NCBI GenBank assembly: GCA_002163155.1
Contig: MAAO01000006.1
Coordinates: 434,001-498,000, forward strand
Direction of reading: 5' to 3'
Length of the DNA: 64,000 nucleotides
Source of the DNA: Halobacteriovorax marinus
GTDB taxonomy: Bacteria > Bdellovibrionota > Bacteriovoracia > Bacteriovoracales > Bacteriovoracaceae
Positions 27,796-42,752 of this stretch are shown here, one piece after another; position 1 is the stretch's first letter, and every line of letters starts with the position of its first letter. The translations under genes were made by a program, and so were the position numbers. The notes under the pieces are model-generated. The model worked only from the letters and a program-made list of their open reading frames with translations, did not search any database and was not told where the DNA came from.

Positions 27796-28348
27796 CTTGA
27801 GAGAAATTGCAAAGAAATTTGAAGATAAGCTTTCGAAAATTAAAGTTGTGGCCTTTGATGTTGATGGAATTCTAACTGATGGAAAAGTTTGGTATTCTGG
27901 TGATGAGATGGGCTGGAACCGAGTCACTAATACAAGTGATGGTTATGGTTTAAAGATGCTTAAAGAATTTGGTTTTAAAGTCGGAGTGATTACCGGTGGA
28001 GATTCCCTAAGTGTTATAAAGAGATTTAAGGAAAACCTTAAACTTGACTTTGTTTACGCTGGAAACGAAGACAAGAGAGAATCTTATAAGAAATTATTAG
28101 ATGAGGGATATAAGCCTGAAGAAATTCTCTACATGGGGGATGAGTTTTTTGACCTTCCCTTACTTATGGCGAGTGGTTTCTCTGTCACTGTTCCAAGTGC
28201 AAGCTTAGAAATTCAAGAAAGGGTTGATTATATCACTTCTATTTCTGGAACAGGTTCTGCCAGAGAAGTCATAGATATATTGAGATATTCGAGAAACCTA
28301 TATCCAAAAATTAAAGATATGAATGGAGAATTCATTAAATTTAATTAA
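27785..28348 (+). CDS. kdsC: Kdo-8-phosphate phosphatase (HAD family)
   Basis: A protein of 187 residues of the C0-type HAD phosphatases. Motif I is VVAFDVDGILTDG with the nucleophilic Asp, motif II GVITGGDS, and motif IV YMGDEFFDLPLL. It removes the phosphate from Kdo-8-phosphate between KdsA and KdsB. ATG at 27785 has AGAGG 6 bases upstream. It overlaps kdsA by 11 bases and, at its stop, the convergent sensor kinase gene by 4 bases. The cap insert is missing, as expected for tetrameric KdsC. Confidence 0.9.
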   Translation: MSSNLREIAKKFEDKLSKIKVVAFDVDGILTDGKVWYSGDEMGWNRVTNTSDGYGLKMLKEFGFKVGVITGGDSLSVIKRFKENLKLDFVYAGNEDKRESYKKLLDEGYKPEEILYMGDEFFDLPLLMASGFSVTVPSASLEIQERVDYITSISGTGSAREVIDILRYSRNLYPKIKDMNGEFIKFN

Positions 28349-30441
28349 TTTTTTAAGGGGAGCTTGATAATAAAATGTGCTCCCTGTTCTGACTCTTTTA
28401 AAATCAAGTCGCCTTTCATCTCTTTCATTATTGACTTAGAAATACTTAAGCCAAGGCCCGTTCCTTTTCCTTTTTCCTTCGTGGTGAAGAAAGGGGTGAA
28501 GATCTTTTCAACCATAGAACTTGGTATTCCTGTACCTGAATCTAAAATTCCTAGGTAGCAGTATCCATTTTCACTTCTGTTGGTAATGGTTATTTTCTTA
28601 ACAGAGCAATTCTCCAATGCATCTATTGAGTTATTTAGTAAATTGATAAGAACCTGTGAAAATTGTGTTTCTTTGATGAAGACATTTAATTCACTATCCA
28701 TATCTTCAATTAATATTCTCACTTTTTGTTTCTTAATTTTTGATTCTATGAAGATGAGAGTTTTATCAATTAAGATTTTTAATTTCTTATTATCCTGCTT
28801 GTCTTTACTGCTCTCTCTAGAGAAATCTAAGAGATTTGAAATAATAGATGAGGTTCTTGTTACAGAGTCATCAATATTATTTAAACATCTTTCTATTTTT
28901 TCTGATTTCTTAGCGTTTGTGATCTTTAAGAAGTGAAATTCATCTTCAAGAATAGAAAGTGAGAGAGAGATGACTCCCATAGGGTTATTGACTTCATGTG
29001 CAATACTACTGGCGACCTCTCCAAGAGCTGCTAGCTTTTGATTATGAATCGATTTTGCTCTTTCTAATTCGATTTCTACTTGTGCTTTGACTTTCTCACT
29101 ATTATCGAAACATTGAGCAAAGTAGATTTCTTCATGCTTATCTTTATTTATTGTCCAAAGAGAATATTTCCATTCTTTTTTATTTTTAAAAATTATCTCT
29201 TCATTGAAGATCTCATTGTTTACTTCTAGCTTGTTGAGTAGTTGTTTAAAGGAGTAACTTTCATTTAAGAGTGAGTCCTGAACTATATTTTCTCCGACTT
29301 TTTCTAGATCTAGGAAGTTCTTTGCTGACTCATTTAATTGAATGATAGTGCCATCATTATCCCAAATGAGTATTGGAAGTTGTGAAGAGTTGATAAACCT
29401 AGAGAGCTGGTTTTTCTTAATTTTAAAATTTTGAAATACTGTAGAAAAATCATCACTAATAATATTAAATTCCTCTATCGAGCTCTTTTTGTAAGTAGAG
29501 AGATTATCATCTTCAATGGTTGAGTGTAAGAAATTGAGTAATCTTTTAAGGTTAGGAGTGAGTAGGGCATGAGTTAATAACATGGAAATAAAAGCTAAGA
29601 TAAATGTCAGCACAACTGTATAAATAACATATTTAAAATAGGATTGTCTGAGCTCTTCAATAAGAAGTGAGGATGTTTCAAAATATATATTTAAATCGAC
29701 ATCCTCGAAAATATCTAATTTTCCTGAGTAGTATATTTTTTGATCTGTTGAAAATAACTTCTGACTAAATGAGCTTTGAAATATTTTTCTTTCTTCTTCC
29801 TTTAATGGTCTAATTCCTGCAATGAATTTATCTCCTAGAAACACAAAAAGGTTGTGATGATTAATTCTATCTGAAATTTTAGAGAGAAGTTCTAGATTAT
29901 TATTAAGTAAGATTCCTGTGTGTATGGTCGCTAGAACCTTTCCGCTATTTGTAGAGATAATTGGTTTTTTTGTGAAAATAACAACGTTTGAGTTATTATA
30001 AACACCAAAAGAAAGAGTTTCATTTGATTTTCTTTCTAGATATTCTTCAATGATTGAGCTGTCATCGTGTAAATTGATACTGACATCTATTGTTTCCTTA
30101 CTCTGATCAAAACTAATAAATAGAAAATCTGAACTACTGAAATCTGTTGAAATTTCTTCTAGTACTTTTTTTACTTTTTTAAAATTGTCTTCTTCTAAGC
30201 TCTTGATGATTTCTTTATTTTCAGATATAGAATTTAGTGAATTATTCATTATTTTAAATTCTGAATTCAAAAATAATTGAGTGAGCTTTAGGTCTTCCTC
30301 AAAGTCTTGAATAAGTTTTTCTTCAAAGAGTTGTGAGGACGTTTGATACTGTATATAGATAATAGGAGTCGCCACAACTAAAATCGTTATGAGAATATTG
30401 AAACCTATAATAGCTGAAAGTCTGTAATCTTTTTTCTTCAT
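28345..30441 (-). CDS. LuxQ-like sensor histidine kinase without receiver domain
   Basis: A protein of 698 residues. Membrane segments at about 9-30 and 271-290 enclose a periplasmic sensor of about 240 residues. The sensor resembles the LuxQ periplasmic domain: FLFISFDQS (106-114), and PIISTNSGKVLATIHTG with LLNNNLELLSKI (160-189), match LuxQ in order and spacing. After TM2, SSIEEFNIISDDFSTVFQNF and the PAS segment LPILIWDNDGTIIQLN (355-370) also match LuxQ. The kinase core has H482 in SIAHEVNNP, N-box NLLNNSIDALEN, DSGTGIP and GKGTGLGLS, and the protein ends there. LuxQ of Vibrio has a further receiver domain; this one does not. It directly follows the luxP homologue (TAATG junction). Likely senses AI-2 through LuxP. 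Confidence 0.8.
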   Translation of the reverse strand: MKKKDYRLSAIIGFNILITILVVATPIIYIQYQTSSQLFEEKLIQDFEEDLKLTQLFLNSEFKIMNNSLNSISENKEIIKSLEEDNFKKVKKVLEEISTDFSSSDFLFISFDQSKETIDVSINLHDDSSIIEEYLERKSNETLSFGVYNNSNVVIFTKKPIISTNSGKVLATIHTGILLNNNLELLSKISDRINHHNLFVFLGDKFIAGIRPLKEEERKIFQSSFSQKLFSTDQKIYYSGKLDIFEDVDLNIYFETSSLLIEELRQSYFKYVIYTVVLTFILAFISMLLTHALLTPNLKRLLNFLHSTIEDDNLSTYKKSSIEEFNIISDDFSTVFQNFKIKKNQLSRFINSSQLPILIWDNDGTIIQLNESAKNFLDLEKVGENIVQDSLLNESYSFKQLLNKLEVNNEIFNEEIIFKNKKEWKYSLWTINKDKHEEIYFAQCFDNSEKVKAQVEIELERAKSIHNQKLAALGEVASSIAHEVNNPMGVISLSLSILEDEFHFLKITNAKKSEKIERCLNNIDDSVTRTSSIISNLLDFSRESSKDKQDNKKLKILIDKTLIFIESKIKKQKVRILIEDMDSELNVFIKETQFSQVLINLLNNSIDALENCSVKKITITNRSENGYCYLGILDSGTGIPSSMVEKIFTPFFTTKEKGKGTGLGLSISKSIMKEMKGDLILKESEQGAHFIIKLPLKN

Positions 30442-31523
30442 TAACGAGAATACCTAAAAGATCTTTTCTTTAATTTTTCGATCTCTTCTTTAGTCGTACT
30501 TTTATCTATGATAACCATTTCTCCAGAAAAAACTCTTGGTATTAATGATGATCTATCCTCTAATTCATATTTTATGGCCTCTGCCATGGCCACTCCATTG
30601 TCATCATTTATTCGCATCACTGTTAAATCTATTCCATTTTTTTTCAAAGATAAACTTTCAAGTTCTGCACTTCCGCCACCCCATCCGTTTATAGTAAAAT
30701 CTAACTTATTTTTTTTAGAGAACTTTGCAGAAGTGATGGCGATATCAGTAGAACAAGAAAAGACGAGCTGAATGTCTTTTTCATTTGTGGTGAGGTCTTC
30801 TAATGCCTTCTTGATCTTATTTTCATCATTGTCGGTATAATATCTTCCAACGAGTTTCCATTTCTTGTGTTGCTTTAAATTACCTATGAAAGAGTCTCCG
30901 CGCATTTTACTAACGTAACCATCTGTTAGGTACAGCATGGCAAACTTGCCTCCATTAGGATGAATTTGTAAGATGCGATCAAGTAGTAGTTTACTTCCTA
31001 ACTGGTGATCAAAACCCACATATAAGAATGGAGGGTGATTTTTCCAAAGCTTCAGGGGAGTCGTAATATTTTGTAGGATGACTTTGGTTTTTCCCTTACT
31101 AAGTATTTGAGTGATAATTTTTTGATGTTTCTTAGCATCTAAAGTGAATATTAAGTAATCTGGGTTTCCCTTTAAACTTTGCAATATATGCTTTGCTTGT
31201 TTTCTTATCTCAACACCAGGCTTTGTGAAGAATTCTTCTATTTGATATTTTATATTTAGAAGATCGAGTCTGGCCTTAAAAGAGGAGAGGCTTCGCTTCC
31301 AGTAGTCTGAGATTTGTTTTCCAGGATAGATCACAGAAATTTTAATGGGTCTTCGCTGCTTCGCTTTTACTTGAATTGGAAGATTTGTGACAACTTTCGA
31401 AAAATCATTTAAAAGTTGTTCTTGTTTAGGATGGTGTTTGAAGTATTCATTTATATGCCAGAACTCGTCTGAATGAGAATTTAATGAAATTAAGAGGCAT
31501 AAATATATTGATATTTTCTTCAT
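30441..31523 (-). CDS. luxP: LuxP-like autoinducer-2 binding protein
   Basis: A protein of 360 residues with a signal peptide (MKKISIYLCLLISLNSHS) and the whole length of Vibrio LuxP. Matching segments include RRPIKISVIYPGKQISDYW, PDYLIFTLD, QNITTP, PPFLYVGFDH, CSTD, INGWGGGSAELE, TVMRINDD and KKRSFRYS. From memory of the Vibrio harveyi LuxP-AI-2 structure, the ligand contacts are Gln77, Ser79, Tyr81, Trp82, Asn159, Arg215, Thr266, Trp289 and Arg310; here they align to Gln70, Ser72, Tyr74, Trp75, Asn152, Arg208, Thr259, Trp281 and Arg304, all conserved. It overlaps the sensor kinase start by 1 base. GGA precedes the ATG. LuxP is distinct from RbsB and LsrB. Confidence 0.9.
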   Translation of the reverse strand: MKKISIYLCLLISLNSHSDEFWHINEYFKHHPKQEQLLNDFSKVVTNLPIQVKAKQRRPIKISVIYPGKQISDYWKRSLSSFKARLDLLNIKYQIEEFFTKPGVEIRKQAKHILQSLKGNPDYLIFTLDAKKHQKIITQILSKGKTKVILQNITTPLKLWKNHPPFLYVGFDHQLGSKLLLDRILQIHPNGGKFAMLYLTDGYVSKMRGDSFIGNLKQHKKWKLVGRYYTDNDENKIKKALEDLTTNEKDIQLVFSCSTDIAITSAKFSKKNKLDFTINGWGGGSAELESLSLKKNGIDLTVMRINDDNGVAMAEAIKYELEDRSSLIPRVFSGEMVIIDKSTTKEEIEKLKKRSFRYSR

Positions 31524-31659: not shown

Positions 31660-31917
31660 ATGAAAGAATTAAATAATCTAAAAGCACTTCTCGACACTGA
31701 ATACGAGTGGCCAGGGCCTTATTTGTTTAAGTTCATTGTGCCTGCTGTTCAACTTCTTGCTCTAAAGGGTTTACTCTCAGGACATGATTTAATAGAGAAA
31801 CCTTCAAAAAATGGTAAATATATCTCAATTACGCTCACTATAACGTGTGAATCTTCACAAAAAGTCATTGATCTATACGAAAAGGTTTCTTCAATTCCCG
31901 GAATCATGTCTCTGTAG
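31660..31917 (+). CDS. DUF493 (YbeD-like) protein
   Basis: A protein of 85 residues with the small alpha-beta DUF493 fold: YEWPGPYLFKFIV at the start, EKPSKNGKYISITLTITCES and IDLYEKVSSIPGI at the end. Members such as E. coli YbeD often sit beside lipoate genes, and have an ACT-like fold with a suggested regulatory role; no partner is present here. It starts 136 bases from the divergent luxP gene and 38 bases before gpsA, so it may share a transcript with gpsA. Function not established. Confidence 0.7.
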   Translation: MKELNNLKALLDTEYEWPGPYLFKFIVPAVQLLALKGLLSGHDLIEKPSKNGKYISITLTITCESSQKVIDLYEKVSSIPGIMSL

Positions 31918-31955: not shown

Positions 31956-32984
31956 ATGAGTTATGATTGCGCACTTGTAGTAGGTGCTGGAGCATTTGGA
32001 ACTTCAATTGCATCAGTTTTGGCAAATAATTTTAAGAAAGTCATACTTAAAGTAAGATCAGTTGATGTCTATGAGAGCCTTTTAAAGGGTGAGAATTCTG
32101 TATACCTTCCAGGTCAAAAACTTTCTGATAATATTGTTCCCGCCCTTAGTTGGGATGAAGTGGATGAACAAACCACGGGCAAGATAGAACTCATTATTTC
32201 AGGCTTACCAACTGCAGGAATTTCATCGTTTTTCTCTGAAAACTCTGAACGTTTTAGTCGGTACTTTGAGCAAGGAGTACCTCTTGTTTCTCTTTCTAAA
32301 GGGATTGATCCCATAACATTAGAATTAGCAGACGATCTCTTCTTTGATCTCTGGAGTCAGCATAGAGAGCTTTTTACTTTTCTTTCTGGTCCAAGTTTTG
32401 CCAAAGAAATCATGGAAGAGCAAATTACTCTTGTCACTCTTGCGGGTAGGTCACGTAAAGTCTTAAAAAATGTTTCTAAGATGTTGGACACGCAATACTT
32501 TAAGGTTCTTCCAAGTTATGACATTAAAGGAGTTCTCTTAGGAGGAGCTCTTAAGAATGTCTTAGCGATTGCCGGTGGGATTTTAGAAGGTCTTGGTTAT
32601 AACCATAATACTAGGGCCGCAATGATCACTCGAGGTATTGCTGAGATGTTGAGATTTGGTAAAGTCTATAATGCTAGACCTGAAACTTTCTATGGATTGA
32701 GTGGAATGGGAGATCTTATTCTTACGACAACAGGAGAGTTGTCTCGGAATAAATCTTTTGGTCTTGAGATTGCGAAGGGACGAAGTCCTGAAGAAATTGT
32801 GAATTCACAAAGAACAGTAGTCGAAGGTTTTAAAACGTCTAAGGCCGCATATCTTGTATCTGAAAAATATGAAATTAGAGCGAGTATATTTGAAGGCGTC
32901 TATAGAGTTCTCTATGAGAACGCTGACCCAAGAGAAGTTCTCACTAAACTCATGAGGCAGCCAGGAAAGTTTGAGCTTGATTAA
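31956..32984 (+). CDS. gpsA: Glycerol-3-phosphate dehydrogenase [NAD(P)+]
   Basis: A protein of 342 residues. The N-terminal Rossmann motif is VVGAGAFGTSIASVLANN, with ISGLPT, SLSKGID, SGPSFAKE and the catalytic Lys region LGGALKNVLAIAGG, then GLSGMGDLILT. It makes sn-glycerol-3-phosphate for phospholipid synthesis. The gene starts with AAGG upstream (31946 region) and ends in FELD. Its stop codon overlaps the dsbD gene by 4 bases, and the two ends form a hairpin. Normal length. Confidence 0.93.
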   Translation: MSYDCALVVGAGAFGTSIASVLANNFKKVILKVRSVDVYESLLKGENSVYLPGQKLSDNIVPALSWDEVDEQTTGKIELIISGLPTAGISSFFSENSERFSRYFEQGVPLVSLSKGIDPITLELADDLFFDLWSQHRELFTFLSGPSFAKEIMEEQITLVTLAGRSRKVLKNVSKMLDTQYFKVLPSYDIKGVLLGGALKNVLAIAGGILEGLGYNHNTRAAMITRGIAEMLRFGKVYNARPETFYGLSGMGDLILTTTGELSRNKSFGLEIAKGRSPEEIVNSQRTVVEGFKTSKAAYLVSEKYEIRASIFEGVYRVLYENADPREVLTKLMRQPGKFELD

Positions 32985-42669: not shown

Positions 42670-42752
42670 GTGCTTAATATTAGAGGGAGCTCTCCGCTGG
42701 GAGTACTTGAGTTGTAAGTAAAGGCAATGGCCTCACTATCCGATAAGTCTTT
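42670..42752 (+). other. Structured leader upstream of the lipoprotein glycosyltransferase gene
   Basis: The 222-base gap between divergent genes (42531-42752) holds possible stems just before the ATG at 42753: CTCC/GGGAG around 42691-42704 and GGC/GCC around 42724-42732. There is no Shine-Dalgarno in front of the ATG. I tried and could not match it to any riboswitch class. It may be leader RNA, promoter or neither. Confidence 0.25.

Follow-up and report, generated by a model that had tools for sequence, protein, structure and literature searches.

Does a bacterium that preys on other bacteria, and that makes no LuxS, carry a receptor for the AI-2 signal of other cells? The question is raised by a luxP homologue of Halobacteriovorax marinus, located in a 64,000-nucleotide stretch of its genome (contig MAAO01000006.1; hereafter the window), which an initial annotation made from the letters of the window had described as a full-length LuxP with all AI-2 contact residues. 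We consider it moderately probable that luxP and the kinase gene overlapping it form a listen-only two-component AI-2 receptor of the LuxPQ type, made by the swimming predator. A further proposal, to which we give somewhat less than an even chance, is that the predator eavesdrops, an attack-phase LuxPQ-type receptor reading the AI-2 of prey or prey communities and a receiver-less kinase tuning hunting or prey entry.

LuxP homologues in luxS-less marine bacteria (Neptuniibacter, Marinomonas and Desulfuromonas) were described as early as 2008 (PMC2561040), and a 2024 paper counts Bacteriovorax marinus SJ among the "AI-2 listeners", without further analysis in its accessible text (PMC11069264). 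The predator resembles these carriers in having LuxP without LuxS and, like several of them, a sensor or regulator with a PAS domain next to LuxP. A total of 267 LuxPs was counted in 2025 (PMC12268683). The accessible text of PMC2561040 and PMC11069264 contains no description of the predator's LuxQ-type kinase, synteny, pocket or promoter. A search mostly outside subscription journals found no literature tying LuxP to Halobacteriovorax biology and, within the same scope, the Halobacteriovorax papers examined by term mention neither quorum sensing nor LuxP. New in this study are the LuxQ-type partner, its synteny throughout the genus, the intact pocket, the finding that neither LuxU nor luxS is present, the non-Vibrio descent indicated by trees, the candidate sigma-28 promoter, and the rarity of the pair elsewhere in the phylum.

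The 360-codon luxP ORF reads on the minus strand, and the plus strand there is full of stops. By every available test of sequence and fold, this gene encodes a true full-length LuxP. At E<=0.001, a phmmer search of the PDB with its product returned LuxP chains only (4yp9, 1zhh, 1jx6 and 2hj9), the best match (E ~3e-96) covering residues 20-359. An AlphaFold model built on an alignment of 29 LuxPs (mean pLDDT 89.7) had its top Foldseek matches in 4yr7 (E 4e-40) and 1jx6 (E 5e-39), which are LuxPs complexed with AI-2 or AI-2 analogues, at 43% identity and an rmsd of 1.4-1.6. Sugar binders ranked after LuxP, and the best non-LuxP binding protein had an E-value of 9e-16. Because the sequence matches LuxP only and the fold matches LuxP first, the observation is real and lies far beyond chance. 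The full-length assignment made at the outset thus stands, and the LuxP motifs then quoted are found in the protein. The features of the locus are collected in the table.

Features of the luxP locus, in positions of the window
Feature	Position	Strand	Remarks
luxQ-type membrane histidine kinase gene	28345..30441	minus	698 aa, without receiver domain
HATPase_c	28351..28671	minus	N and G boxes intact; domain search and sequence
HisKA	28813..29025	minus	H-box intact (SIAHEVNNP); domain search and sequence
Periplasmic LuxQ-like sensor domain	29626..30360	minus	kinase residues 28-272; PF09308 and AlphaFold model
luxP homologue	30441..31523	minus	360 aa; Peripla_BP_4; LuxP PDB chains, 326 bits; predicted periplasmic AI-2-binding protein with signal-peptide-like stretch at N-terminus
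sigma-28 (FliA)-type promoter, TTAAGTAA-N11-TCCGATAA	31549..31575	minus	CCGATA core ends 26 nt before luxP start
Small DUF493 gene	31660..31917	plus	divergent from luxP; conserved flank, outside the sensor
gpsA	31956-32984		after DUF493 gene; conserved flank, outside the sensor

The ATG of the kinase gene overlaps the luxP stop codon (TAATG at 30441), so the two genes are probably co-transcribed and translationally coupled. Besides PAS, HisKA and HATPase_c domains, the kinase carries a LuxQ-periplasm domain (PF09308) at 43.1 bits, above the Pfam cut-off of 25.7; in the other four species of the genus this domain scores just under the cut-off (20-25 bits). Its best NCBIfam model is LuxQ_Vibrio (NF041947), at 177.5 bits and hence below the 1200-bit cut-off, with an alignment that spans 3-697 of 843 positions and is full-length apart from the receiver. 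A model of the periplasmic part (pLDDT 89.3), made without templates and with V. harveyi LuxQ as one alignment row, is closest to the LuxQ periplasmic domains of known structure (Z 18-20 over ~200 residues); the next fold relatives, other double-PAS/Cache sensors, follow at a clear distance (Z 14.5). The kinase ends after HATPase_c, whereas V. harveyi LuxQ has a Response_reg domain; lacking a C-terminal receiver, it is LuxQ-like and not a canonical LuxQ. For the gene pair, the earlier view that luxP lies outside Vibrio-type neighbours has to be given up, since the gene that adjoins it in the apparent operon encodes a LuxQ-type kinase whose periplasmic domain is that of LuxQ in sequence as well as in fold. 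The locus resembles V. harveyi LuxPQ (1JX6; complex 1ZHH, 2HJ9) in its full-length LuxP with complete AI-2 pocket, in the gene order luxP-luxQ and in an adjacent kinase of the same periplasmic fold. It differs in that its LuxP is only 43% identical, its kinase has no receiver, and a sigma-28-type promoter precedes it.

In V. harveyi LuxP (1JX6), AI-2 is hydrogen-bonded by S79, R310, R215, T266, N159, W82 and Q77 (PMC9687752). The equivalents in the window LuxP, by alignment, are Ser72, Arg304, Arg208, Thr259, Asn152, Trp75 and Gln70; all seven are identical, as is Trp289 (Trp281), and the contact residues, including Gln77 and both arginines, are invariant across all five species of the genus. 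The seven correspondences first proposed (Q70, S72, W75, N152, R208, W281 and R304) are borne out, and the positions then singled out as most telling, Gln70, Arg208 and Arg304, are intact after alignment. The contact residues are essentially invariant across 84 LuxPs, for which the best 80 of the 263 loci described below were kept, although the conservation of Arg310 is partly built in because the loci were found via two conserved peptides, one of them containing Arg310. The closest relatives linked to ABC transporters (L091-L093, 25-28% identity) keep both arginines, but in them Gln77 is replaced by Asp or Glu, Thr134 by Gly and Asp267 by Ala. LuxP can therefore be told apart from these relatives by the three residues, all of which are as in LuxP in the window protein. 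Three of the five species have Asn at the Asp136 position, where the window species keeps Asp, and three of five have Leu before N159 (Q158L). From the pocket we infer that the window LuxP binds AI-2, most likely S-THMF-borate as in Vibrio. As a separate observation, the contact list of the initial annotation did not include T266; its counterpart, T259, is likewise kept.

No luxS had been seen in the window, and the absence extends to the whole genome and to all five genomes of the genus, in searches whose controls worked. Of 49 further LuxP carriers that were checked, luxS is present in 27, which include the vibrios, Arcobacter and most of the remaining Gammaproteobacteria; it is missing from every alphaproteobacterial carrier and occurs in few of the Desulfobacterota. 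The predator genus contrasts with the Campylobacterota and with most of the sampled gammaproteobacterial carriers. In principle, some AI-2 activity can form from pentulose phosphates without LuxS. The lack of luxS in the genus points to other cells as the origin of the AI-2 signal. LuxU has no convincing counterpart in the genus, the best match (E 0.036, 25% identity) occurring in one genome, and the proteins resembling LuxO are numerous members of the NtrC family (35-39% identity), among which none stands out. The genus departs from the V. harveyi circuit in having no LuxU, no luxS and no protein singled out as a specific LuxO. With neither a receiver domain nor LuxU, the kinase must use a separate, unlinked response regulator.

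In each of the five genomes of the genus the luxP-kinase pair lies next to gpsA, in conserved synteny. Elsewhere in the phylum it is rare: luxP was found in six of 369 genomes, the five of the genus and one from another genus of the same family (G095), where luxP lies at a different place and the adjacent kinase again has a LuxQ-periplasm domain. In trees, the LuxPs of the genus form one clade (support 100/99-100) that falls outside the Vibrionaceae/Aliagarivorans group, across a 100/100 branch; deep relations are unsupported. Identity to V. harveyi LuxP is 61-69% among vibrios versus 43% for the genus. These trees indicate that luxP of the genus is of non-Vibrio descent, the separate and supported clade giving no sign of a recent theft from vibrios. 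Any link between the gene and Vibrio prey is consequently ecological guesswork.

A sigma-28-type promoter block, TTAAGTAATTTCAGCAACTTCCGATAA, lies in the 136-nt intergenic region that separates luxP from the divergent DUF493 gene. In Bdellovibrio bacteriovorus, RNA 5'-end mapping placed TTAAG-N16-CCGATA in 92 of 140 attack-phase promoters, and these sites were read as FliA/sigma-28 sites (PMC3627812). The luxP promoter is of the same TTAAG-N-CCGATA type as this attack-phase FliA regulon; it differs from that of the other genus in its spacing, N15 as against the printed N16. A generic sigma-70 scan of the luxP intergenic region returned nothing on the luxP strand. Since the strict whole-genome pattern TTAAGTA-N13-CCGATA found the luxP site only, use of the motif as a regulon was tested through spacing enrichment on 864 kb of the genome. 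Exact T(A/T)AAG-Nx-CCGATA occurred six times at x=15 and four times at x=16, and the 15 other spacings, which served as control, gave five matches together, or ~0.3 per spacing. All ten exact sites lie 7-80 nt before a correctly oriented ORF; luxP is among these ORFs, and one is a MotA-like gene, recognised as such by eye. The probability that the luxP leader contains one such exact site by chance is ~2e-4.

Exact TWAAG-N15/16-CCGATA stands before luxP only in the window species among the five, and the other four keep a degenerate block at the same spacing (beginning TTAACTAA, TTTAGTAA, TATAGTAA and again TTTAGTAA). With a scoring matrix whose training set excluded the luxP sites, three of the five genus sites reached p 0.005 and two were weak (p 0.04-0.06). 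G095 has a site of its own ~125 nt upstream of its match; before luxP of other lineages such a site was found in none of 78 cases at p<0.01. Together these results are good evidence that luxP is under sigma-28 control in this lineage. On the strength of the Bdellovibrio data, luxPQ may be expressed in the attack phase.

The identity and origin of the gene could be read otherwise. That it encodes an ordinary uptake protein for ribose or another sugar, of the RbsB type, is hardly credible: the Peripla_BP_4 domain is present, but no ABC transporter genes adjoin luxP, its partner is a LuxQ-type kinase, and the RbsB equivalog model gives E 0.039 and 13 bits against a cut-off of 337. RbsB-type proteins, the competing identity raised in the initial annotation, also lie far behind by fold (Foldseek E of at least 9e-16 versus 4e-40), LuxP structures being ahead by 24 orders of magnitude in E-value. 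This identity was rejected on the model score and the Foldseek ranking. Vibrios are known prey of Halobacteriovorax (PMC10434201), and luxPQ might have been acquired from them recently; the separate clade, the strongly supported branch between it and Vibrionaceae, and the gap in identity described above make this very improbable, and recent transfer is disfavoured by the trees.

Other readings accept a LuxPQ-type sensor and change its ligand or its use. The ligand may be another small polyol or sugar, such as a pentulose or an AI-2 look-alike from lysing prey, since LuxP belongs to the ribose-binder superfamily, sugar binders come next in Foldseek, three species of the genus have D136N and Q158L, and the solved LuxPs hold AI-2 analogues, for example 1-deoxy-L-xylulofuranose-1,2-borate in 4yr7. 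We regard this as improbable, given that all direct hydrogen-bonding contacts are kept in every species while the ABC-linked relatives change Gln77 and Thr134, and that three random LuxPs, from Proteobacteria and Deferribacterota, bound AI-2 in a reporter assay (PMC12268683). A receptor that does bind AI-2 might serve general sensing of the habitat, such as a biofilm or dense community, in place of prey finding. The occurrence of LuxP with a LuxQ-periplasm partner in many marine bacteria outside the phylum of the predator, many of them without luxS, lends this some weight, but the sigma-28 promoter, found before luxP in the predator genus and before none of the 78 other luxP genes, speaks against it, and we rate it as less likely than not.

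In the preferred reading, that of a listen-only AI-2 receptor, LuxP would be exported to the periplasm and would bind, via its conserved pocket, AI-2 diffusing in. Liganded LuxP would then act on the LuxQ-like periplasmic domain and shift the balance between kinase and phosphatase activities, and the kinase would directly phosphorylate a response regulator whose gene lies elsewhere. Read from the sigma-28 promoter, the operon would supply the receptor in the motile attack phase. The AI-2 itself would be made by other cells, with prey or dense communities of prey as plausible producers. Vibrios are among the bacteria that Halobacteriovorax attacks (PMC10434201), and every vibrio genome checked has luxS, which makes prey an obvious source. 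A true LuxP with a complete pocket, in a predatory lineage without luxS, renders the sensing of others' AI-2 plausible, and AI-2 from prey may be sensed by the predator. If true, this would connect a bacterial predator directly, at the molecular level, with a signal that is widely made by other bacteria, and whether such predators listen to the quorum signals of their prey could be tested with a single pair of receptor genes and with prey that have or lack luxS.

The receptor has counterparts well beyond vibrios, to which LuxP had initially been thought almost confined. An alignment-based scan of genome contigs found 263 LuxP loci outside the phylum, in vibrios, Oceanospirillales and Halomonas among Gammaproteobacteria, Arcobacter (Campylobacterota), Alphaproteobacteria and Desulfobacterota, a breadth also evident from PMC12268683 and from the accessible text of PMC2561040 and PMC11069264. 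The LuxQ-periplasm domain was present in 23 of 25 genes scanned downstream of luxP, the window's own not counted; of the remaining two, L072 is a case in which a more distant ORF, a mutase, had been picked, and L011, from genus member G004, was weak in the scan. The outputs fused to this input vary, comprising plain kinase, hybrid kinase, GGDEF-EAL and SpoIIE phosphatase. The predator shares its LuxP and LuxQ-periplasm input with the Arcobacter kinase, the GGDEF-EAL receptors of Halomonas and Zobellella and the SpoIIE receptors of Desulfococcaceae, and differs from these in its output domain. Given a widely shared, mostly marine input module with exchangeable outputs, bacteria that do not make AI-2 may sense it far more commonly than a picture centred on Vibrio suggests. 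The "LuxP" of S. (Silicibacter) pomeroyi DSS-3, as it appears in the accessible text of PMC11069264, is probably the ABC-linked L092, which has Asp at the Gln77 position.

At four of the luxP loci (L014, L021, L025 and L036), the gene downstream of luxP encodes a LuxQ-periplasm protein with GGDEF-EAL domains, and the presence of these domains on the LuxP partner suggests AI-2 input into c-di-GMP turnover. The SpoIIE phosphatase domain of the partner at a further locus, L012, is possibly an unusual AI-2 output.

In the genus LuxP alignment, the G001 protein reads NGWGGRSSE where the conserved stretch is NGWGGGSAE, a change that adjoins the Trp289 contact (V. harveyi numbering). The Ruegeria pomeroyi protein has Asp at the Gln77 position when aligned with LuxPs and is probably not a LuxP; it is probably also the S. 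pomeroyi entry in the LuxP count of PMC11069264.

Genome G000 has nine flagellin-domain matches (flagellin loci among L116-L145), and several flagellin leaders of the genus contain TWAAGTA-N-(C/G)CGATA/CCGAATA sites with the spacing of the luxP site. A 447-aa lipoprotein-like ORF starts 7 nt after the window's second exact sigma-28-type site, a position that makes it a candidate for a further attack-phase gene.

Coordinates of the features discussed
Feature	Location	Strand	Remark
LuxQ-periplasm/PAS protein	L012:6158-8404		SpoIIE phosphatase domain at C-terminal end; paired with LuxP
Ruegeria (Silicibacter) pomeroyi protein	L092:3848-5002		Member of ABC transporter operon
luxP of G001	L004:1501-2556		Genome probably H. 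marinus
Sigma-28-type site	window 42719-42746	+	TAAAG-N16-CCGATA, exact; second besides that of luxP
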